Assembly (NCBI GenBank): GCA_027315205.1
Contig: DAHUYM010000006.1
Span: 1-64,000, forward strand
DNA length: 64,000 nt
Direction: 5' to 3'
Origin: Leptospirillum sp.
GTDB taxonomy: Bacteria; Nitrospirota; Leptospirillia; Leptospirillales; Leptospirillaceae
In this document: positions 10,570 through 22,698 of the stretch, piece by piece
Numbering within the stretch: the stretch's first letter is position 1
How the letters are laid out: every line of letters starts with the position of its first letter
Notes under the pieces: generated by a model
The model's input: only the letters and a program-made list of their open reading frames with translations
Databases searched by the model: none
What the model was told of the DNA's origin: nothing
Position numbers and translations under genes: made by a program

Positions 10570-11928
10570 ATGCCGCCCTCTTACGCCTGGATACTCTCTC
10601 CCCGTCCCGACTCCTTGATGGTGTTCCGGATAAGACGGGTCAAAAAAACCTGGATCCTCGAGCAGAGCTCGTCGATACCCATTTCCCTTTCGGACCTGAT
10701 TTCTGGCCGGGACACGGGATCCGAAGACCTTTCACGATTGGGAATGTCCCGCCCCAATACCGCTGAAGTGGTCCTTCTTTGGCCGGGGGAACTTTCAGGG
10801 GCGGGCTCATTTAGTCTCCCCGGGATTCCGGAAAACGATCTCAAAAAAGTCGTGTCGGGTGAAATCGAATCCGTCATTCCCTGGGACGTCGACACGTGCC
10901 AGATCGCGTTTCACGCCGAACGCAGGGGAACCGGCTGGGAAACGTATGTATGGGCCACGCCCAGAAAACTCGTCGAACGCGCTGTCTCGAAACTCACACG
11001 GACGGGGCTCGAACCCAAGCACGTCATTCCTGAGTCCTTCACCCTCTTTGCCGGCACGGAAACCCGAACTGCCGGGATTTCGGAAACCGAAGCGGTCGTC
11101 GGCCCGATGCCCGGACGGCTCCTCGTACAGGTCCTGAAAGGGGGTTTCCCCCAGCGAGAAACCGTCCTGACATGCCCTCCGGGAACGGATTTCGGAGACA
11201 CCCTCGACCAGCTGCTCGCCGCTTACTACCTGCTCGAACTTCCCGAAACCTGCGAACTTCGCTGGATCGGACCGGAGGCAAGTGATGCGTCCTCCGATCC
11301 CGACCCGGCGGACGGGTGGCACACCGCCGACGAAGAACGGATCCGGCTTGCCGCATCGGGAATCTGGAAGGGCTGGTCCGTCCGCCGGGGCCTTCCAGAT
11401 TTCCGGAGCGGTTCGATGGCGTTTCGGAAAGACCAGGAACACCTTGTTCGGAAGTTCCGGACCCTGGCCGCCATGGGACTCGTACTCCTCCTCCTGGGAG
11501 GCATCGACGCATGGATTCATGTCCATGGGCTCCGGACGCGCGTCGAAAAGACCCGTTCCTTCCTGGACGGCTTGGCGAAACAGAGCCTCTCCCCGGCACC
11601 GGTCATCGAGCCGATCAGCCAGCTTCGACAAAAGAGGAACGCCCTTCTGGATCAGAAGAGGTTCCTGTCCCGCGGCACCGACATGATCGCCATATTGAAG
11701 GACATTGCCACAGAGCCACCGGGAAACATCCCCTTCGAAATGGTCTCCGTTTCCCTTGGAAGTCACCGGTTGAGCCTCTCGGGCAAGACGGACAGCTTTC
11801 AGCACGTCGAGGCCGTCCGGCAGGCCCTCCTGAAATCCCCCCACATTCGGTCTCTGTCGGTCCAGAGCGCCCGGCTCGATATCGACCATAAAACGGTGGC
11901 GTTCCGGATGGGAGGAGTCCATGACTGA
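10570..11928 (+). CDS. gspL: Type II secretion platform protein GspL
   Basis: The 452-residue protein has a cytoplasmic actin-like N-terminal half (about 1-280; EVVLLWPGE and the TFTLFAG region fit the GspL/PilM fold). One membrane segment lies near 298-316 (MGLVLLLLGGIDAW), followed by a coiled region and a C-terminal ferredoxin-like periplasmic domain. GspL recruits GspE to the membrane and partners GspM. It overlaps gspM by 8 bases. Sequence similarity is weak, as usual for GspL; topology and position support the call. Confidence 0.8.
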   Translation: MPPSYAWILSPRPDSLMVFRIRRVKKTWILEQSSSIPISLSDLISGRDTGSEDLSRLGMSRPNTAEVVLLWPGELSGAGSFSLPGIPENDLKKVVSGEIESVIPWDVDTCQIAFHAERRGTGWETYVWATPRKLVERAVSKLTRTGLEPKHVIPESFTLFAGTETRTAGISETEAVVGPMPGRLLVQVLKGGFPQRETVLTCPPGTDFGDTLDQLLAAYYLLELPETCELRWIGPEASDASSDPDPADGWHTADEERIRLAASGIWKGWSVRRGLPDFRSGSMAFRKDQEHLVRKFRTLAAMGLVLLLLGGIDAWIHVHGLRTRVEKTRSFLDGLAKQSLSPAPVIEPISQLRQKRNALLDQKRFLSRGTDMIAILKDIATEPPGNIPFEMVSVSLGSHRLSLSGKTDSFQHVEAVRQALLKSPHIRSLSVQSARLDIDHKTVAFRMGGVHD

Positions 11929-12511
11929 CATGACTGCGCGGTTTCCGGACGCATGGAAAAACGGAATACGGGCGATATGGGAGCGCTGGAACCGGCTGAC
12001 CGACCGTGAAAAAAGGCTCCTTTCCGTTCTCGGAACCGTTCTGGCCCTGTATGCAGGCCAAAAAACCGTGGACATCCTTTTTGTGGCACCCTACGAGCGC
12101 TACCATGCCGAAGAAGAATCCCTGAGATCGGATATTCTGCTTGCCCAGACGCTGTCCCAGGAAATCCGGAGGAACCAGGACGAGATCCGGACCCGGACTT
12201 TAAGGCTCGTCCAGGACCGTGCGGGGTTTTCCCTGATCTCATACCTCGAGCAGGAGGCCACCCAGGCGCAAATCCGTTCGAGCATTACCCAGATGACCCC
12301 GCGGACACTGCCACCCGAAGGTGGGTATCATTCCGTCTTGGTGAGCCTCAGGATTGAGAACGTCGACCTTCCTCACGTCCTTTTCTTCCTGGCCCGGATC
12401 GAACGTTCCCCCCATCTGCTCCGGATCACGCGCCTCACGATGGAACGCCGTTTCGACCATCACCGGCTCCTTGACGTACACCTCGATGTGCAAAGCATCC
12501 AGTCTTCCTGA
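11921..12511 (+). CDS. gspM: Type II secretion protein GspM
   Basis: The 196-residue protein has a short cytoplasmic N-terminus, the W-x2-LTDREKRLLSVLG motif that opens GspM/PilO-like proteins, a membrane segment near 33-52, a coiled coil (about 60-105) and a small ferredoxin-like C-terminal domain. It partners GspL in the inner-membrane platform. Its 3' end overlaps the chosen start of gspK. Confidence 0.8.
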   Translation: MTDMTARFPDAWKNGIRAIWERWNRLTDREKRLLSVLGTVLALYAGQKTVDILFVAPYERYHAEEESLRSDILLAQTLSQEIRRNQDEIRTRTLRLVQDRAGFSLISYLEQEATQAQIRSSITQMTPRTLPPEGGYHSVLVSLRIENVDLPHVLFFLARIERSPHLLRITRLTMERRFDHHRLLDVHLDVQSIQSS

Positions 12512-13544
12512 AGAGAGCCCCCCGCCCGATCAGGCCACAAGGGGGGCAATCGACCGCGGAGTCGCGCTCATCCTCGTCTTGTTCATGGTCTCACTCATCA
12601 CGGTCCTCGTTCTCCGCTTCGTGATCCACAGCCGCGAGTTCTTGAAAGAGGCCGAGATCTTCCAGAACGGGACCCAGGCGTATTTCCTGGCACGATCAGC
12701 GATCGAGGCCGGACGCGTGGCCTTGGTGGAGAGCTCCCTTCTCGGCGTCCAGTCCGGACAGAACTACACCTCCCTGAACCAGCCCTGGGCGACCCCCCTC
12801 ATCAATTATCCCGTCGGTCATTCCGGGTTTCTTTCCGGGATCATCGTCGACGAAGCCTCCAAGCTGAACCTGAACCTCCTGGCACAATCCGGGGGCGTCC
12901 CAAACATTCATGTCATGGTCCAGTTCACCCGTCTTTTCTCGCTCCTTGGGGTGAACCCGGGGGTACTTCCCTCCATATCGCAATGGGTTACGCCGGTTCC
13001 TCCGGGAGGCTCAGGCGGAGGCCCCTACGCATCGATGATCCCTTCATACCGGTTGCGCGGGGGACCGATGAGCGTGTTGTCTGAACTCCACCAGATCGCT
13101 GGTATGGACGAAACCGTTTTCCGGGCGATCGAACCATTCGTCACCGTCGCCTCCAACGGACAGGTGAACGTCAATACCGCGTCGACGACCGTTCTCGAAT
13201 CCCTCGATCCCGGGATCACTCCGGAACTGGCATCCAGGATCGTCTCAGGTCGCCCGTATTCTTCTCTTTCCACTCTTTCGAACATCCTCGGTCCGGCAAT
13301 CTTTTCGAACATCCAGGGAGACCTGACGACCCAAAGCTCGATCTTCTCGATTCAGGCGGTCGGAACGGTCGGGAACACCCGTCAGGCCGTGAAGGCCTAC
13401 CTTTCCGTCAACGGTTCCCAGACCCAGATCCTTGCCTTCCGGGTCGGCGGAAACTCCCTTCTCGGACAGATCGAAACACTACTGAAAAACGCGCCGGCAG
13501 AAGGATCAACCTTTTCTCAACCCACGATGACCGGACCGTCCTGA
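12486..13544 (+). CDS. gspK: Minor pseudopilin GspK
   Basis: This is the large tip pseudopilin of the type II system. After about 22 residues comes DRGVALILVLFMVSLITVLVL, the prepilin-like cleavage site and hydrophobic helix. As usual for GspK, Glu is absent at mature position 5. The rest matches the general secretion K fold, with DEASKLNLNLL near the start and helix-hairpin-helix-like VNVNTAST and LASRIVSGRPY elements. The start ATG 12486 lies inside gspM, giving about 352 residues. It is the last gene of the cluster; gspH, gspI and gspJ, its usual tip partners, are not present here. Confidence 0.85.
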   Translation: MCKASSLPEESPPPDQATRGAIDRGVALILVLFMVSLITVLVLRFVIHSREFLKEAEIFQNGTQAYFLARSAIEAGRVALVESSLLGVQSGQNYTSLNQPWATPLINYPVGHSGFLSGIIVDEASKLNLNLLAQSGGVPNIHVMVQFTRLFSLLGVNPGVLPSISQWVTPVPPGGSGGGPYASMIPSYRLRGGPMSVLSELHQIAGMDETVFRAIEPFVTVASNGQVNVNTASTTVLESLDPGITPELASRIVSGRPYSSLSTLSNILGPAIFSNIQGDLTTQSSIFSIQAVGTVGNTRQAVKAYLSVNGSQTQILAFRVGGNSLLGQIETLLKNAPAEGSTFSQPTMTGPS

Positions 13545-14264: not shown

Positions 14265-15485
14265 TTACCGAACCGAGGCCTTTCCTTTTTTCCTGTGTTC
14301 CTCTTTTACCCGGTACATGGCCGTGTCTGCCTTTGCAATCAGGGTATCCGGGTCCGTTCCGTCCTCTGGAGCGATCGCCCAACCGATGCTGACCCCGACG
14401 TCCGGGACGCCGACTTCAGGGATGAGCGGTGTTTCCGTCAGACGTTCCTCGAGTTTTCGGGCGATTTCCGACACGAGGCCGGGTTTTTCGACGAGATCCA
14501 TGACGATCGAAAACTCATCCCCGCCGATCCGTGAAACGATATCGCCTTTTCGAATAAGGGCCTGGAGCCGTTTCGAGAACTCGACGAGCACCCTGTCCCC
14601 CGCTTCGTGCCCGAAAAGGTCATTGACCTCCTTGAACCGGTCAAGGTCCAGGTACAGGAGGATACAGGAATAGCTTCCGCGCTCAAGCCGCGCCAATGCG
14701 AACCTCAGGGCCTCGTAGAAAAACCTCCGGTTGGGGAGGCCGGTCAACGGATCGTGCGCCGCTTCGTGCTCGAGCTTGAACGACAGAAAATGGATCAGAC
14801 GGTAGGTTTTCCAAAAATAGAGATACCCTCCGATCAGGACCAGGAAAAAGATCGGGACCAGGATCCCCGCGTGACGCTCGGAAGCGTGTTTGCGTGCCTC
14901 CGCCTTGAACCGCATCAATTTGATATCGGCGAGAATCGACCGGTCGATATTCGAAATATGGAACCGGATCAGCCGCATCATGGTGATACCGAAGTTCGAC
15001 CGGACGACGGGGAGTGCCGCCGAGAGTCCTTTTTCGTTACGGAGTCGGATGGTCCTCGCAAGTTCGTCCTTTTTTGCCCTAAGAAGCGAAACGACGACGG
15101 GCATCTCGGACGTGAAAACGGGATCACGGTAGTGCGATTTTCCGATTTCGGACAAATCCTTTTCCAGTGCCGATTGCGCTTCCGTGTAAGGGAGCAGGTA
15201 GTCGGACTGACCGGTCAGAAGATATCCCCGTTGCCCGGTTTCGGCGTTCAGGATGTCGATCAGGAGATGGTTCAGGATTTGATGGACCTTGATAAGGCGG
15301 TCCATCTTGCGGGAGTGCTGCAGGAATACGACACTGTCCTCCAGGGTCAGGACCCCGAAAACCAGCACAAGGATGGCCAAAGATACGATGATCGCAAGAA
15401 GAAATCCCTGGAACCGGCTCCAGGTCGGCATGTCGTCATGGGACCGAAACGAAAACGGTGCCGGTGGGTCGGGGTCACCGGGCAT
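14265..15485 (-). CDS. Membrane diguanylate cyclase with CHASE3 sensor
   Basis: This protein should make c-di-GMP from two GTP in response to an external signal. The 406 residues contain a membrane segment (about 28-50), a CHASE3-like extracytoplasmic domain (about 55-195, with ETGQRGYLLTGQSDYL), a second membrane segment (about 205-225) and a GGDEF domain to the end. The active-site motif RIGGDEF is intact. An RKGD product-inhibition site lies five residues before it, so feedback by c-di-GMP is expected. It is convergent with the upstream TPR gene. A later start at Met19 is possible. Confidence 0.93.
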   Translation of the reverse strand: MPGDPDPPAPFSFRSHDDMPTWSRFQGFLLAIIVSLAILVLVFGVLTLEDSVVFLQHSRKMDRLIKVHQILNHLLIDILNAETGQRGYLLTGQSDYLLPYTEAQSALEKDLSEIGKSHYRDPVFTSEMPVVVSLLRAKKDELARTIRLRNEKGLSAALPVVRSNFGITMMRLIRFHISNIDRSILADIKLMRFKAEARKHASERHAGILVPIFFLVLIGGYLYFWKTYRLIHFLSFKLEHEAAHDPLTGLPNRRFFYEALRFALARLERGSYSCILLYLDLDRFKEVNDLFGHEAGDRVLVEFSKRLQALIRKGDIVSRIGGDEFSIVMDLVEKPGLVSEIARKLEERLTETPLIPEVGVPDVGVSIGWAIAPEDGTDPDTLIAKADTAMYRVKEEHRKKGKASVR

Positions 15486-15592: not shown

Positions 15593-15719
15593 TCTTATTA
15601 TTGCAACAGCGTTACTTTTTGAAAAGTCCCCTCCCACTCCGTTCCTTCATTCCCGGAGAAGCATTGCCTGGTCCGGTCCGATAGCGATACTATGGGTGAG
15701 CGGATCGAAGGGAGGCATC

Positions 15720-16067
15720 ATGGACCGTTCCCGGATCGAACGACTCGAATGGCTGTATTCGCAAAACAAGGGGGATCCCGTTATCGGATTCGGGCTGGGG
15801 GTGGCCCTGGTAGAGAACGGGGAACCGTCCAAAGGCCGGGTCATTCTCGAAAGCGTGACCCGTCTGAAACCGGAATACGCCGCGGCGTGGGAATGGCTCG
15901 GGAAAGCCCTCGAAGAATTGGGAGAGCGGGAAGAGGCCATCAGGGTCTATCAAAAAGGAGTGGAAATCAGCCGCAAGGGAGGATTCCTGGCACCGGAAAA
16001 ACAGATGTCCCGCCGACTAAAACGCCTGGGAGCAGCCCCAGTCCCTTCGAAAAAAACGGACGAATGA
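15720..16067 (+). CDS. Small TPR-like protein
   Basis: The 115 residues contain two or three TPR-like helix pairs (GFGLGVALVENGEPSKGRV, EYAAAWEWLGKALEEL, EEAIRVYQKGVEIS). There is no signal or membrane segment. The ATG at 15720 is preceded by GGGAGG at a good distance; an upstream in-frame ATG lacks this. The gene overlaps the MNIO/DUF692 gene by ATGA, so the two are probably translated together. This suggests a helper or scaffold for that enzyme, which is inference only. Confidence 0.8.
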   Translation: MDRSRIERLEWLYSQNKGDPVIGFGLGVALVENGEPSKGRVILESVTRLKPEYAAAWEWLGKALEELGEREEAIRVYQKGVEISRKGGFLAPEKQMSRRLKRLGAAPVPSKKTDE

Positions 16068-17506
16068 CCGCTCCGGCTTCCCGAAACCCCGGCGTCTCCG
16101 GCGTTCTGGACCGATTGCCCTTCATGGGAATCGGACTTTCGACGGACCTTTACTTCCCCCCTCTCGAACCGATGCTGGACGCTCTCTTTCCCGAATCCCC
16201 ACCCCACTACATTGAAATCTTCCGGGGAAGGGCGTGCGATCTCGAGCGTGCACGAGCCGAGACCGTTCCCCGGACCATCCCGATGACCTACCACGGAGAC
16301 GCCCTCTGGTACACCCAGCCCGATTTTCCCGACAACCCCTCCTACCAGGAGGAAATCCGGCGGGCCAACCGTCACCTCGACACCCTGGAAGCACCCTGGA
16401 TGATCCACGAATGCGCCCAGAAAGCCCTCTTGGGCCGTACGTTCGGAGTCTACCTCCCTCCCGTTCTGTCCGACCGCTCCGCTGAATGGACCCGGCACAA
16501 CGCGCTGAGCCTGGCATCCCGGCTCGAAGGCCGGACCCTCCTGGTGGAAATCCCGCCCTTTCCGCTCTTTTCTGTCGGTGATTTGGGGGTCGGTGCCTTT
16601 TTCCGAGCCGTTGTCGGCGGCACCGATCTCGGACTGGGACTGGATATCGGCCATGCGCTGACAGCCTATAGGCTCCTGAACCCGTCTCCCTCGCCGGAAG
16701 GTCTGGCCAGCTGGCTCGATCGGGAGTTTCCGCTCGAACATGTGGTCGAGATCCACGTAGGGGGGATGGAGACGATCCCGAGCCCGTACGGCGTCTGGTT
16801 CTGGGACGACCATTCCCGGGAAATCCCCCAAATCCTGTGGGACTCCCTGGATGCCGTCCTGAGATACTGTACCCTCCCCGTCCTCAAAGGAGTGGCACTG
16901 GAAGTGGACAACAAGGAGATCCCCTTGGTGGCAAAGGAGTTCCGAACGTTCCGGCGCATTGTAGAACGGCGCTGGACCCGCTCGCCGTCTCCGATCCCCC
17001 TCCTTTCCCTTTCAGACTTCGCTTCCAAACCCTCCGAACCCGAAGACCGGAACGCACTCGAACAGGAATACGCGGATTACCTCGAAACGATTTTTTCAGC
17101 GCACCCGCCGGAGACGGCGAAAACATTGGGGATGCCCGGATTCTTCCGGGACCGCTTTCTTCCGGAAGACGTCTGGAGCTTCGGCGGCCACATCCCGGAT
17201 CTTTTTCCCAAATCGCTCTCCCGGATCGAACGATTCGTTCGCAGGCCGAAAGACGCGTTCGTGTCCTTTTTCCACGGGATTCCTTTGACAGATCTCGTAC
17301 CGTACGATTACCTCCGGACCAAGGTGACCGTTTTCGGCCTCTGGGTCGAAGCCTTGATCCGAAATTGCCAGATTCCTCCCGACACAATCGAAGAGATTCG
17401 CCGGCTGGCCCATCATGAAGGGAGACAGATCCTTGACGACCAGGAACGGATCAACGGGGATCCCCTCGGGGATCGAAACCGCGAGGGATACCTTCTCCAT
17501 GCCTAA
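16064..17506 (+). CDS. MNIO (DUF692) family iron oxidase with C-terminal extension
   Basis: Residues about 15-300 follow the TIM-barrel pattern of DUF692, now called multinuclear non-heme iron-dependent oxidases (MbnB, TglH). Family-like blocks, in order, are GIGLSTD, MTYHGDAL, MIHECAQ, LLVEIPPF, LGLDIGHA, EIHVGGM, WDDHSREI and ALEVDNKEIP. The His, Glu and Asp residues in these blocks are candidates for the iron ligands. Characterised members modify cysteines or other residues of ribosomal peptides. Usual length is about 280 residues; this protein has 480, with about 170 extra residues whose fold I do not recognise. No classical precursor peptide is evident; a Cys-Pro-rich lipoprotein follows with an 8-base overlap. 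Confidence 0.75.
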   Translation: MTAPASRNPGVSGVLDRLPFMGIGLSTDLYFPPLEPMLDALFPESPPHYIEIFRGRACDLERARAETVPRTIPMTYHGDALWYTQPDFPDNPSYQEEIRRANRHLDTLEAPWMIHECAQKALLGRTFGVYLPPVLSDRSAEWTRHNALSLASRLEGRTLLVEIPPFPLFSVGDLGVGAFFRAVVGGTDLGLGLDIGHALTAYRLLNPSPSPEGLASWLDREFPLEHVVEIHVGGMETIPSPYGVWFWDDHSREIPQILWDSLDAVLRYCTLPVLKGVALEVDNKEIPLVAKEFRTFRRIVERRWTRSPSPIPLLSLSDFASKPSEPEDRNALEQEYADYLETIFSAHPPETAKTLGMPGFFRDRFLPEDVWSFGGHIPDLFPKSLSRIERFVRRPKDAFVSFFHGIPLTDLVPYDYLRTKVTVFGLWVEALIRNCQIPPDTIEEIRRLAHHEGRQILDDQERINGDPLGDRNREGYLLHA

Positions 17507-18260: not shown

Positions 18261-18357
18261 CGGGCAGAGACACCGTAAAAATCTTTTCTTTTAAGGAAAT
18301 CTGGTCTAACATGTGACCTGTGAACCGACCTTTTTATCTGCCCTAGAAGGAGATAAC

Positions 18358-19407
18358 GTGCAGGTTCTGTCCTTTCCGGTCCAGGAAAATTCCCTCTTCG
18401 GCATCCGCATGAACGACGTGTTCAAGATCCTCGGGTCATCCTCCCTCAAGCCCAATACCGACAAGACATCGGACATCGTCGGAACCGTCCGGGAAGGCGA
18501 CAGGGAAATCCCGGTCCATACCCCCTATCGATGGATTTCTTCGGGCACTCAAAATTCGGATCCGCTCACCAGAATCCTTGTCGTTTCGGCGGAAAACGGC
18601 GGGCGTTTCGGCATAGGAATCTCGAAAATGGGCAAGGTTCTCCGGGTTCAAGGCACTAAAACTTCGCGTCCCGGGACATCGCATGCCTTCCTTCTCGAGG
18701 CGAAAACCTTCGACGGGTCGCCGATCCTGATTGTCGATCCCGACCTTTTCCTCTCCGGCAAGACCGGCGATGCCTCCGGCCCGACCTCCTCCCATTCCGG
18801 AAAAACCAGGCAACCGGAAAATCCGGGCCCCCCTGGAGCGACGGACGACCTGATCTCCCAAATCGGAAAAACTGCGCGGGAGATCCAGAAAATCCTCTCC
18901 CTTTCCGATACGATGATTGATGCGATGAAACTGATGGAGAACAATCTTCCCAAGACCTCGGACGCCCTGGAAGCCGTGTCGAAGATGACCGAAGAGGCGG
19001 CGCACAAGATCCTGGGTGTCCTGGAATCGGCCGTAACCACAAATCAGGAGGTCAGAAACCGTCTTTCTTCCCTGAAAGAACACCCCGAAACCCTGGATCA
19101 GACCTTGAATTCGGTCCATGCCCTTCTCGAAGAGGAGGAAGGCCGGATCATGCAGGGATTCGAAGCCATGGTCTTCCAGGATCTGGTCGGGCAGAACATC
19201 CGACAGATGACGCGAACGCTCAACGAACTCGAAAAAAAGCTTCTCGAGATTCTGATCGAGTTCTCCCCGTCCGCTTCCAAGGAGGAAAAAGAGCCGGAGA
19301 AGGCAACGGACTCTCCCATTCCCGGTCTCGACCTGAAAGGCGTCCCCGGGCAGTCGGCCATCTCGCAGGATTCAGTCGACAAGCTCCTGTCCGAATTCGG
19401 ATTCTGA
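18358..19407 (+). CDS. CheW-CheZ fusion chemotaxis protein
   Basis: Residues about 3-130 look like a CheW domain (FPVQENSLFGIRMNDVFKIL, GRFGIGISKMGKVLRV), the adaptor that couples receptors to CheA. After a Ser/Pro-rich linker (about 135-165), the remainder matches CheZ, the phosphatase that removes phosphate from CheY. It has the long helical hairpin, the active-site motif FQDLVGQ with the catalytic Asp and Gln, and the C-terminal CheY-binding tail SQDSVDKLLSEFGF. The GTG start at 18358 follows AAGGAGATAA. Fusing adaptor and phosphatase would place CheY-P removal at the receptor array. No other che gene is in the window. Confidence 0.85.
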   Translation: MQVLSFPVQENSLFGIRMNDVFKILGSSSLKPNTDKTSDIVGTVREGDREIPVHTPYRWISSGTQNSDPLTRILVVSAENGGRFGIGISKMGKVLRVQGTKTSRPGTSHAFLLEAKTFDGSPILIVDPDLFLSGKTGDASGPTSSHSGKTRQPENPGPPGATDDLISQIGKTAREIQKILSLSDTMIDAMKLMENNLPKTSDALEAVSKMTEEAAHKILGVLESAVTTNQEVRNRLSSLKEHPETLDQTLNSVHALLEEEEGRIMQGFEAMVFQDLVGQNIRQMTRTLNELEKKLLEILIEFSPSASKEEKEPEKATDSPIPGLDLKGVPGQSAISQDSVDKLLSEFGF

Positions 19408-19474: not shown

Positions 19475-19558
19475 ATGGATGACTGCTTTCGCCTTCCGGG
19501 CGACCCTTCCTTCCGATTCCAGTCGTCGGGCGCCTCCCCGGGGCCTGTTACCCGATGA
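19475..19558 (+). CDS. 27-codon leader ORF translationally coupled to the GGDEF-EAL gene
   Basis: An ATG at 19475 lies 10 bases after AAGGAG and opens a frame of 27 codons (MDDCFRLPGDP...). Its TGA overlaps the ATG of the large c-di-GMP gene as ATGA. The large gene has no good ribosome binding site of its own. The arrangement suggests that translation of the leader delivers ribosomes to the downstream gene. The peptide itself has no recognisable domain. It could still be a chance frame. Confidence 0.5.
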   Translation: MDDCFRLPGDPSFRFQSSGASPGPVTR

Positions 19559-22500
19559 AAAAGACCCTCTCCTATCGCCGTCTCATCAGGCTCTATGCCA
19601 CCCTGAGCCAGGTCAACCAGGCAATTCTCCGGGCTTCATCACCCGATTCCTTCATGGAAGAGATCTGCCAGATCGCCGTCCATTTCGGAAAATTCAAGTT
19701 CGTCTGGATCGGACTGGTCGACAAGGACTCCAAAAGGGTTCTTCCGGTCGCGCATGCCGGTGACTCCAACGGATATCTAAACTCCATCTCGATCTCGGTC
19801 GATCCGGACCGCCAGGACAGCCACGGCCCCACGGGAAGAGCGATCCTCACCGGCAAATCCCAAGTCGTCCAAGACTTCGAACACGACAAAAGGACGGTGT
19901 TCTGGCAAAAGGAAGCGCGGAAACGGGGTTTTCGCTCCTCGATGGCGGTACCCATTTCCCGGCACGGGGAAAGGATCGGAGCCCTCATGCTGTATGCGGG
20001 GGAAAAGCGTTTCTTCGAATCCCCTGAAAAAAAGCTCATCGCGGAAATCGCCAAGGACATCTCTTTCGCCCTGACCCATATGGATTCCGAAGCCCGCCGC
20101 AAGGCGGCAGAAAGAGAGATCCATGAAAACCAGCGGCGCCTCTCCATCCTTCTAGAAACCAGCCTGACCGTCAACAGGATCTTCGATACCCCTTCCCTCA
20201 TGAAACAGCTGATCCTCATGGGGATCGAGCTTACGGACGCGACGAAAGGAGGATATTCCCTCAGGCGCGAGTCCAAGATCGTATGCGAAACCTTTTTCGA
20301 TGGAGAGGACTGGATTCCCTATCGCGCCGAATTCGCTATCGGCGATGGGGTGCACGGATGGGTCTGGAACCACAGGGCTCCCTATGTCACGAACGATCCA
20401 GGGAACGATCCCGTCCTCTCGGAACGCGAGAGATCGATGATCAAACCCCGGAATCTGATCATCGTGCCGATCCTGTCTGCCACTGGAGATTTTTTGGGCG
20501 CAATCAAGCTGATCGACAAAAAAAACCACGAATCCTTCGGTCCCCCCGAGATCAAGATCCTTGAAAGTCTTGCAGCACAAGCCGCGGTGGCCCTCGAAAA
20601 CGCCTACCTCGTTCAGGATATTTCCCGTTCGGAATCCGATCTCAGGCTCTACAAGCGAGCGATCGAGAGCTCGATCCTCGCATTGACCATTGCAGACGCC
20701 AGAATGCCGGATTTTCCGCTCATCTACGTCAATCCGCGGTTTTGCGCACTGACCGGATATGCCGCAGAGGAAGTGCTCGGAAGGAATTGCCGTTTCCTCC
20801 AGGGCGACGACCGGGACCAGGAAGGTCTTGCCGGATTGCGAAGGGCCTTGGAAAACGGGGATACGTTTGAAACCGTCCTCAAAAACTATAGAAAAGACGG
20901 GACGCCTTTCATGAACCGGATTTCCATTTTTCCCGTTCACGACAAGGAAGGCCGGGTCACTCACGTAGTCGGGATCCAGAACGACATCTCCGAAACGCTC
21001 GACCTGCAGAAAGGCAAGGACCTTTCCGCACGCGTATTCGAAATGGCCAGCGACGGGATCATGATCACCGATCGCGACAACCGGATCGTCCAGGTGAACC
21101 GGGCTTTTTCAGAGCTCACCGGTTATCCCTCCGACGAAATACTCCACAAGGATCCCAAGATTCTTGCGTCCGGACGCCACAACGCGTCTTTTTACCAGTC
21201 GATGTGGCAGGACATACAGATGCTCGATCATTGGCAGGGAGAAATCTGGAACCGCCGGAAAACCGGAGAGATCTTCCCGGAATGGCTTTCAGTGAGCGTC
21301 ATCCGGAACACCGACGGAAACGTCGAGAATTTTATCGGAATCTTCCACGATCTGACGGGACTCAAGGCGTCCGAAGAACGGATCGCCTTCCTGGCCTACC
21401 ACGATCCCCTGACGGGGCTCCCCAACAGGGTCCTTCTCCGGGACCGGCTCGAGCACGCTCTCACACAGGCCCGCCGAAACCAGAAAGAACTCGGGATCGT
21501 CCTCATCGACCTCGACGGCTTCAAGGACATCAACGACCTCATGGGCCATCATGCCGGCGACCGTCTGTTGGTCGAGATGGCCGCCCGGATGACCTCCACG
21601 GTACGGGCCTCCGACACGGTCTGCCGGCTGGGGGGGGACGAATTTCTCCTCGTCCTTCCCGATCTCGCCGACGTCGCCGAACTCTCCCGCCTGGTCGAAC
21701 GCATTTTCAGCGAAATCCGGGAGCCTGTCGAAATCGGAGGGAAATCCATCTCGGTGACGGCAAGCGGAGGAATAACTCTTTACCCCATCGACTCGTCCGA
21801 CATCGACGACCTGATGCGACACGCGGATATCGCGATGTACAACGCGAAAAACGGGGGACGGAACAGGGTCCGATACTACGAGCGGGACATGGAAGGGGAA
21901 CTGAGAAAGAAGGAACAGCTCCGCACGGATATCCGGAACGCAATGCTGGAAAATCAGTTCTTTCTCGTCTATCAACCCCAGGTCAACCTTCTGACGGGAG
22001 AGGTGTTCGGCGTCGAAGCCCTCATCCGATGGCGTACGGCTGACGGAACCATCCGATACCCCGGAGAGTTCCTCCCCGCGATCGAGGAAGAGGAAATATC
22101 GGTCGAAATCGGCAGATGGGTTCTCAGGGAGGCGTTCCTGCAGGCGAAAGACTGGAAAAACCACGGCATCATTCTTCGTGTCGGGGTCAACGTCTCCCCC
22201 CGCCATTTCGTTTCGGGTTCCCTGGAAAACGACCTCAGAAACCTTACGGGGGAAATCGGAATCGTCGAAGGCATGATCGAACTCGAAATCACGGAAAACA
22301 CGATGATACGGGACATCCGGGAAGCGCAGCGCATCGTCCGGGCCTGCCGGCATTACGGAATGCGGTTTGCACTCGACGATTTCGGGACCGGATTCACTTC
22401 GCTTACGACGATCAAGACCCTCCTGCCCGACACTCTCAAGGTCGACCAGACCTTCCTCAGGGAAATGAGCGTCGGGAAAACCAACCGGGCGATCCTGGAA

Positions 22501-22698
22501 AGCATCATGATGATCGGGAAAAGTTTTAGGGAAACCGTTGTCCAGGAGGGGATCGAAACACCGGACGAAGCCCGTGTCCTTCTCGAAATGGGGTGCCACT
22601 TCGGGCAGGGGTATCTGATCGCGAAACCCATGAATGTCTCGGACATCCCGGGATTTCTGCAGGTCTGGAAACAGGAAAAGCGCTGGACGGAATTCTGA
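19555..22698 (+). CDS. c-di-GMP signalling protein, GAF-GAF-PAS-PAS-GGDEF-EAL
   Basis: The 1047-residue soluble protein has two GAF domains (about 25-180 and 195-350) and two PAS domains (about 365-485, with the LOV-like GRNCRFLQGDD motif, and 490-610). A GGDEF domain follows (about 615-785) and an EAL domain (about 795-1045). GGDEF is intact at about 694, with an RASD inhibition site five residues before it. EAL is intact (VEALIRW), with DDFGTG, KVDQTF and EGIET present, so both synthesis and hydrolysis of c-di-GMP look possible. The NCRFLQ motif carries the Cys that binds flavin in LOV sensors, raising the possibility of blue-light or redox sensing. It follows the CheW-CheZ gene and a coupled leader ORF. 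Confidence 0.93.
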   Translation: MKKTLSYRRLIRLYATLSQVNQAILRASSPDSFMEEICQIAVHFGKFKFVWIGLVDKDSKRVLPVAHAGDSNGYLNSISISVDPDRQDSHGPTGRAILTGKSQVVQDFEHDKRTVFWQKEARKRGFRSSMAVPISRHGERIGALMLYAGEKRFFESPEKKLIAEIAKDISFALTHMDSEARRKAAEREIHENQRRLSILLETSLTVNRIFDTPSLMKQLILMGIELTDATKGGYSLRRESKIVCETFFDGEDWIPYRAEFAIGDGVHGWVWNHRAPYVTNDPGNDPVLSERERSMIKPRNLIIVPILSATGDFLGAIKLIDKKNHESFGPPEIKILESLAAQAAVALENAYLVQDISRSESDLRLYKRAIESSILALTIADARMPDFPLIYVNPRFCALTGYAAEEVLGRNCRFLQGDDRDQEGLAGLRRALENGDTFETVLKNYRKDGTPFMNRISIFPVHDKEGRVTHVVGIQNDISETLDLQKGKDLSARVFEMASDGIMITDRDNRIVQVNRAFSELTGYPSDEILHKDPKILASGRHNASFYQSMWQDIQMLDHWQGEIWNRRKTGEIFPEWLSVSVIRNTDGNVENFIGIFHDLTGLKASEERIAFLAYHDPLTGLPNRVLLRDRLEHALTQARRNQKELGIVLIDLDGFKDINDLMGHHAGDRLLVEMAARMTSTVRASDTVCRLGGDEFLLVLPDLADVAELSRLVERIFSEIREPVEIGGKSISVTASGGITLYPIDSSDIDDLMRHADIAMYNAKNGGRNRVRYYERDMEGELRKKEQLRTDIRNAMLENQFFLVYQPQVNLLTGEVFGVEALIRWRTADGTIRYPGEFLPAIEEEEISVEIGRWVLREAFLQAKDWKNHGIILRVGVNVSPRHFVSGSLENDLRNLTGEIGIVEGMIELEITENTMIRDIREAQRIVRACRHYGMRFALDDFGTGFTSLTTIKTLLPDTLKVDQTFLREMSVGKTNRAILESIMMIGKSFRETVVQEGIETPDEARVLLEMGCHFGQGYLIAKPMNVSDIPGFLQVWKQEKRWTEF

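Follow-up and report, generated by a model that had tools for sequence, protein, structure and literature searches.

The window analyzed here is a 64,000-nucleotide stretch of Leptospirillum sp. DNA (GenBank assembly GCA_027315205.1, contig DAHUYM010000006.1, positions 1 to 64,000 of the forward strand). It contains a gene for a single polypeptide in which a CheW-fold domain precedes a CheZ phosphatase. The gene starts with GTG at position 18358 behind a good ribosome-binding site and stops at 19405-19407, and one open frame holds both domains. Its layout, together with separate genes referred to below, is summarized in the table.

Features of the CheW-CheZ fusion gene and of selected separate genes (window positions unless a locus is given)
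Feature	Position	Strand	Detail or basis
CheW-CheZ fusion gene	18358..19407	+	349 aa plus stop; Pfam and same-length orthologues in 19/20 family genomes
Ribosome-binding site AGAAGGAG	18345..18352	+	5 bases 5' of the GTG start; read directly from the sequence
CheW-fold domain, divergent	18361..18753	+	residues 2-132; Pfam 29.3 bits, predicted fold, alignment
Flexible linker	18754..18840	+	residues 133-161; pLDDT below 50 at 137-160
CheZ helical hairpin	18841..19260	+	residues 162-301; Pfam CheZ; two long helices (162-241 and 243-301) in the AlphaFold2 model
CheZ active-site motif FQDLVGQ	19174..19194	+	Asp275, Gln279; alignment to 1kmi
C-terminal CheY-binding peptide SQDSVDKLLSEFGF	19363..19404	+	residues 336-349; alignment to 1kmi
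CHASE3-GGDEF protein gene	14265-15485		
GAF/PAS/GGDEF/EAL protein gene	19555-22698		
CheV, separate gene	L040:5664-6647		

Both halves were recognized by more than one approach. The original prediction of a complete CheZ with the Asp/Gln motif and a CheY-binding tail was borne out by a Pfam CheZ match (PF04344, 78.6 bits, E 7.5e-22, in two stretches; cut-off 30.7 bits) and by a phmmer alignment of the C-terminal part with E. coli CheZ (PDB 1kmi) that includes FQDLxGQ and the terminal peptide. In this alignment Asp275 and Gln279 correspond to E. coli CheZ Asp143 and Gln147, leaving the DxxxQ motif intact. The FQDLVGQ motif is invariant across relatives (A1 and A2), and the CheY-binding peptide is conserved in all of them. 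The predicted N-terminal CheW-like adaptor domain would have been refuted by a failure to match CheW in profile or structure searches; the region matched in both. Residues 2-132 scored 29.3 bits (E 7.3e-7) against Pfam CheW (PF01584, cut-off 23.5 bits), and AlphaFold2 modeled residues 1-134 as mostly beta structure, with pLDDT mostly 84-96 and two weaker loops; beyond it the model shows disorder in the linker (137-160), then two long helices and finally a short helix at the C-terminus. In a structure search with this model, all 16 PDB matches at E<=0.001 were CheW or CheA-P5 (for 2ch4_Y, E 1.1e-8 and TM 0.69 by target length), placing the predicted N-terminal domain in the CheW double beta-barrel fold. 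Furthermore, a fusion-family profile matched solved CheZ and CheW structures over separate halves. No Response_reg match was found in the protein with Pfam, so it was not assigned to CheV, which has a C-terminal receiver.

The join of CheW and CheZ in one polypeptide is real. A chance overlap or misread frame was ruled out, since a single frame holds both domains at scores above cut-off and its orthologues are conserved over the whole length. An assembly artefact was likewise ruled out by the occurrence of the fusion protein in 19 of 20 same-family genomes, including the single-contig genome G003; the exception is a genome that is only 70% complete.

The genome that holds the window (2.0 Mb, 99.9% complete) also carries chemotaxis genes elsewhere. 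A che cluster on contig 22 runs in the order CheR, receiver, CheA, CheB, MCP, and CheW, where CheB was assigned from gene order, sequence start, and a receiver match, and the receiver (C22:140087-140425) was taken as CheY. CheW domains occur in the CheA and CheW of this cluster, in CheV (contig 40), and in the fusion protein, and FliM adjoins an MCP on contig 11. The fusion is the only CheZ found in this genome, in which neither CheC nor CheX was found, and for these reasons the genome probably has no other dedicated CheY-P phosphatase.

The fusion gene itself is an orphan here, with the che cluster on a different contig. It lies, as the original prediction had noted, among c-di-GMP genes, and its neighbors encode an MbnB/TglH/ChrH-family protein, a CarboxypepD_reg protein, and a GGDEF-EAL protein. 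Gene order around the fusion is conserved in the nearest relatives. The functional link to c-di-GMP that this location implied did not hold up, since the GGDEF-EAL gene adjoins the fusion only in the three closest relatives (L044-L046) and not in L047-L061. The c-di-GMP neighborhood is incidental, because many sister lineages have the fusion within a core che cluster of CheR, CheY, CheA, and CheB genes. Elsewhere around the locus, a conserved upstream neighbor across the family (15692-17506) is a 604-aa protein with a domain of the RiPP-modifying MbnB/TglH/ChrH enzyme family, and genes at 11921-13544 resemble type II secretion M (below cut-off) and K proteins.

A survey of the architecture across genomes, which the original prediction had called for, showed that it is widespread in Nitrospirota and not private to this genome. 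Eighteen of the 80 loci found in species genomes belong to the window's family; of the other loci, 21 also encode CheW and CheZ within a single frame. In the phylum sample, CheZ was detected in 177 of 296 genomes; among 30 fetched loci, CheW was present in all 23 frames of 400-525 aa and in none of the 7 frames of 221-275 aa, and family f10 has a short standalone CheZ. Outside Nitrospirota, where phylum names were inferred from record titles, the phylum to which L068 belongs (record title Deltaproteobacteria) yielded 3 fusions among 30 fetched loci. For the phylum that includes L094 (titled Gammaproteobacteria), most strong CheZ matches were in frames of 200-300 aa, and no CheW was seen in those that were fetched. 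Several Desulfobacterota-titled CheZ proteins (L084:5185-6588, L107:5146-6591, L097:3287-4876, and similar ones) have an N-terminal region of about 230-300 aa with no Pfam match, a second and unexplained kind of CheZ N-terminal extension.

Gene context differs between the window's family and its sister lineages. In L064 the order is CheR, two receivers, fusion, CheA, and CheB, and in L116 it is CheR, receivers, CheA, fusion, and CheB; L062, L067, L068, L070, and L095 look alike, as judged from order and sequence starts and not from a domain scan. The fusions of L074 and L085 lie outside such clusters. Because the fusion sits inside the che cluster there, the architecture is part of core chemotaxis in many sister lineages, whereas the gene of the window's family is separate from the che genes. 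All ten fusion-bearing genomes searched have other CheW-domain proteins as well, and the fusion was thus not seen as the only CheW of any of these ten.

In phylogenetic analysis the Leptospirillum-family fusions formed one clade (support 100/100). Forcing all fusions into a single clade cost 107 log-likelihood units and was rejected (AU test, p-AU 6.8e-5), so CheW and CheZ were joined, or the join was lost, on more than one occasion. A clade of the window's family with the fusions of family f9 was not rejected (AU test, p 0.11), and neither deep placement nor the nearest relatives of the family came out clearly in the tree. In one of the comparisons behind this placement, L196 (genome G003) was classed as DHP by its length although it belongs to the window's family, so the LEP and DHP change counts there are too high. 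As a separate observation, f9 proteins (L029, L030, L031, and L038) have a HAMP-like segment between CheW and CheZ, and Pfam HAMP matches three members of A1.

The Leptospirillum-family proteins have lost two residues that define coupling in CheW. In E. coli CheW, a Glu38-Arg62 salt bridge keeps the receptor and kinase sites aligned, and the pair has been described as invariant in class F7 (PMC3828127). The alignment places Lys (VFKI) at the Glu38 equivalent and Gly (VREGD) at the Arg62 equivalent in the window protein. All 40 nonredundant canonical fusions from sister lineages retain the motif, and it is absent from all 18 Leptospirillum-family loci, of which 17 are informative because L045 ends before the region at a contig end; Glu38 has changed mostly to Lys or Arg. 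The N-terminal domain of the window protein has the CheW fold, and because the pair is absent we do not claim functional CheW membership for it.

Could the CheW half be a decaying, functionless remnant, leaving a protein that is simply CheZ? Its Pfam score is weak (29.3 bits), key residues are lost, and in some pairs its dN/dS exceeds that of the CheZ half (0.31 and 0.13, respectively, for the window versus L044). Divergence goes further in genus g3 of the family, where the CheW half is shorter, further reduced, and below Pfam detection; the CheW profile matched only 12 of 23 members of A1. The domain is nevertheless present in every full-length family member, the fold of the window protein is predicted confidently, and even a g3 member yielded a model that, at lower confidence, is still CheW/CheA-P5-like. 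Across pairs, dN/dS was 0.06-0.40 for the CheW half and 0.07-0.16 for the CheZ half, values that are rough for the most distant pairs, in which synonymous sites are near saturation. These ratios lie well below 1, and in one g3 branch the two halves are equal (0.06-0.17). They indicate that the CheW half is kept by purifying selection, and we regard a functionless remnant as very improbable.

With moderate confidence, we propose that the gene product is CheZ, the CheY-phosphate phosphatase of the cell, equipped with an N-terminal CheW-fold docking module of its own, which would anchor the enzyme to the array without coupling. The CheZ half would dimerize, the C-terminal tail would recruit CheY-P, and Asp275 and Gln279 would speed its dephosphorylation. 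The CheW domain would tether the enzyme to the chemoreceptor-CheA-CheW array, a role played for E. coli CheZ by CheA-short. The Leptospirillum-family module most likely docks without a kinase-coupling adaptor role, given the loss of the Glu38-Arg62 pair, and separate CheW and CheV proteins would couple. Docking without coupling is possible in principle, since E. coli CheW R62A still binds both partners and does not support chemotaxis (PMC3828127). The presence of separate CheW, CheV, and CheA proteins, the status of the fusion as the only CheZ, its intact motifs, and the che-cluster location of sister fusions are all consistent with this proposal, whereas the lack of linkage to che genes here and the further reduction of the half in g3 speak against it. 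Moreover, E. coli CheW binds the receptor less well when Glu38 is mutated (PMC3828127), and thus loss of this residue could mean no docking at all.

Alternatively, the CheW fold may have been repurposed to bind a partner outside the array, such as the motor, a landmark at the cell pole, or some other protein, which would give CheZ a different cellular location. Loss of array-related residues together with purifying selection would fit this explanation, as would the separation of the gene from che genes, and Azorhizobium CheZ goes to the poles independently of che proteins (PMC7750401). The CheW folds among the PDB matches, however, act in CheA/receptor complexes, and we consider repurposing unlikely. 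Another possibility is that the N-terminal domain is still a true CheW, that is, a further coupling adaptor that is integrated into the array and carries CheZ as cargo, similar to CheV with a phosphatase replacing the receiver. The window protein does keep the CheW fold, sister lineages keep all key residues, and the gene there lies between CheA and CheB or before CheA, in the adaptor's place. Against this, the Leptospirillum family has lost the Glu38 and Arg62 equivalents, with Glu38 replaced mostly by Lys or Arg, and the genome has a separate CheW and CheV; overall, we judge a true CheW decidedly unlikely. For the canonical sister-lineage fusions, it is as good an explanation as a docking module.

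The claim that the fusion fixes dephosphorylation at the array therefore fared differently in the two groups. It is reasonable and gains good support from context in sister lineages, where the gene lies inside the che cluster and Glu38/Arg62 is retained in all 40 fusions, and it is weaker for the window protein, whose family has lost the pair and whose genome has a separate CheW, CheV, and CheA. The case for array anchoring is accordingly stronger for the canonical fusions than for the window protein. A bolder proposal is that fusions place kinase and phosphatase in one array, so that receptor state could gate phosphatase activity, and that the Leptospirillum-family CheW fold is a pure non-coupling anchor, an adaptor-derived docking domain not described before; this combined proposal we consider doubtful.

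Compared with known systems, the protein shares the helical hairpin, DxxxQ active site, and C-terminal CheY-binding peptide of E. coli-type CheZ (PF04344; PDB 1kmi). In E. coli, CheA-short provides a non-covalent tether for CheZ (PMC7750401), whereas the fusion has an N-terminal CheW-fold domain instead. That domain has the fold and size of the CheW adaptor (PF01584; PDB 2ch4, 2qdl, 2ho9) but lacks the Glu38 and Arg62 equivalents and is joined to CheZ. CheV, which the genome also encodes, likewise joins a CheW domain to another chemotaxis domain, although its partner is a phospho-accepting receiver and not a phosphatase. Further parallels are the proteins of Candidatus Magnetobacterium casense (L064), L116 (titled Nitrospira japonica), and L074 (titled Thermodesulfovibrio sp.), with the same domain order, active site, and tail. 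Their CheW halves are canonical, in contrast to that of the window protein, and L064 and L116 lie in che clusters whereas L074 does not; the CheZ parts of the window protein and L064 are 30% identical. No description of a CheW-CheZ protein was found in the literature searched, a search that had subscription papers and the architecture lists of domain databases outside its range. CheZ, CheW, and CheV are already known, and CheW-CheZ appears to be an undescribed variant; we do not call it a new kind, given that these are public sequences whose architecture may be listed in a domain database.

These results bear on how bacteria other than enterics keep CheZ in position. Alpha- and delta-Proteobacteria reportedly lack the CheA-short-binding sequences (PMC7750401), and the position of CheZ is reported to be able to alter the chemotactic dose response markedly (PMC2673030). 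A natural and widespread covalent link between adaptor and phosphatase makes it possible to compare phosphatase bound to the array directly with the free enzyme, and the Leptospirillum family provides a natural experiment in which a CheW fold is kept by selection after losing its coupling-defining residues. Within this family, genus g3 also has a second, standalone CheZ-like gene (L194:2860-3507 and L195:2966-3652, in genomes G002 and G006), with the active site FQDLVQQN and the ending VVDEILREYGV.
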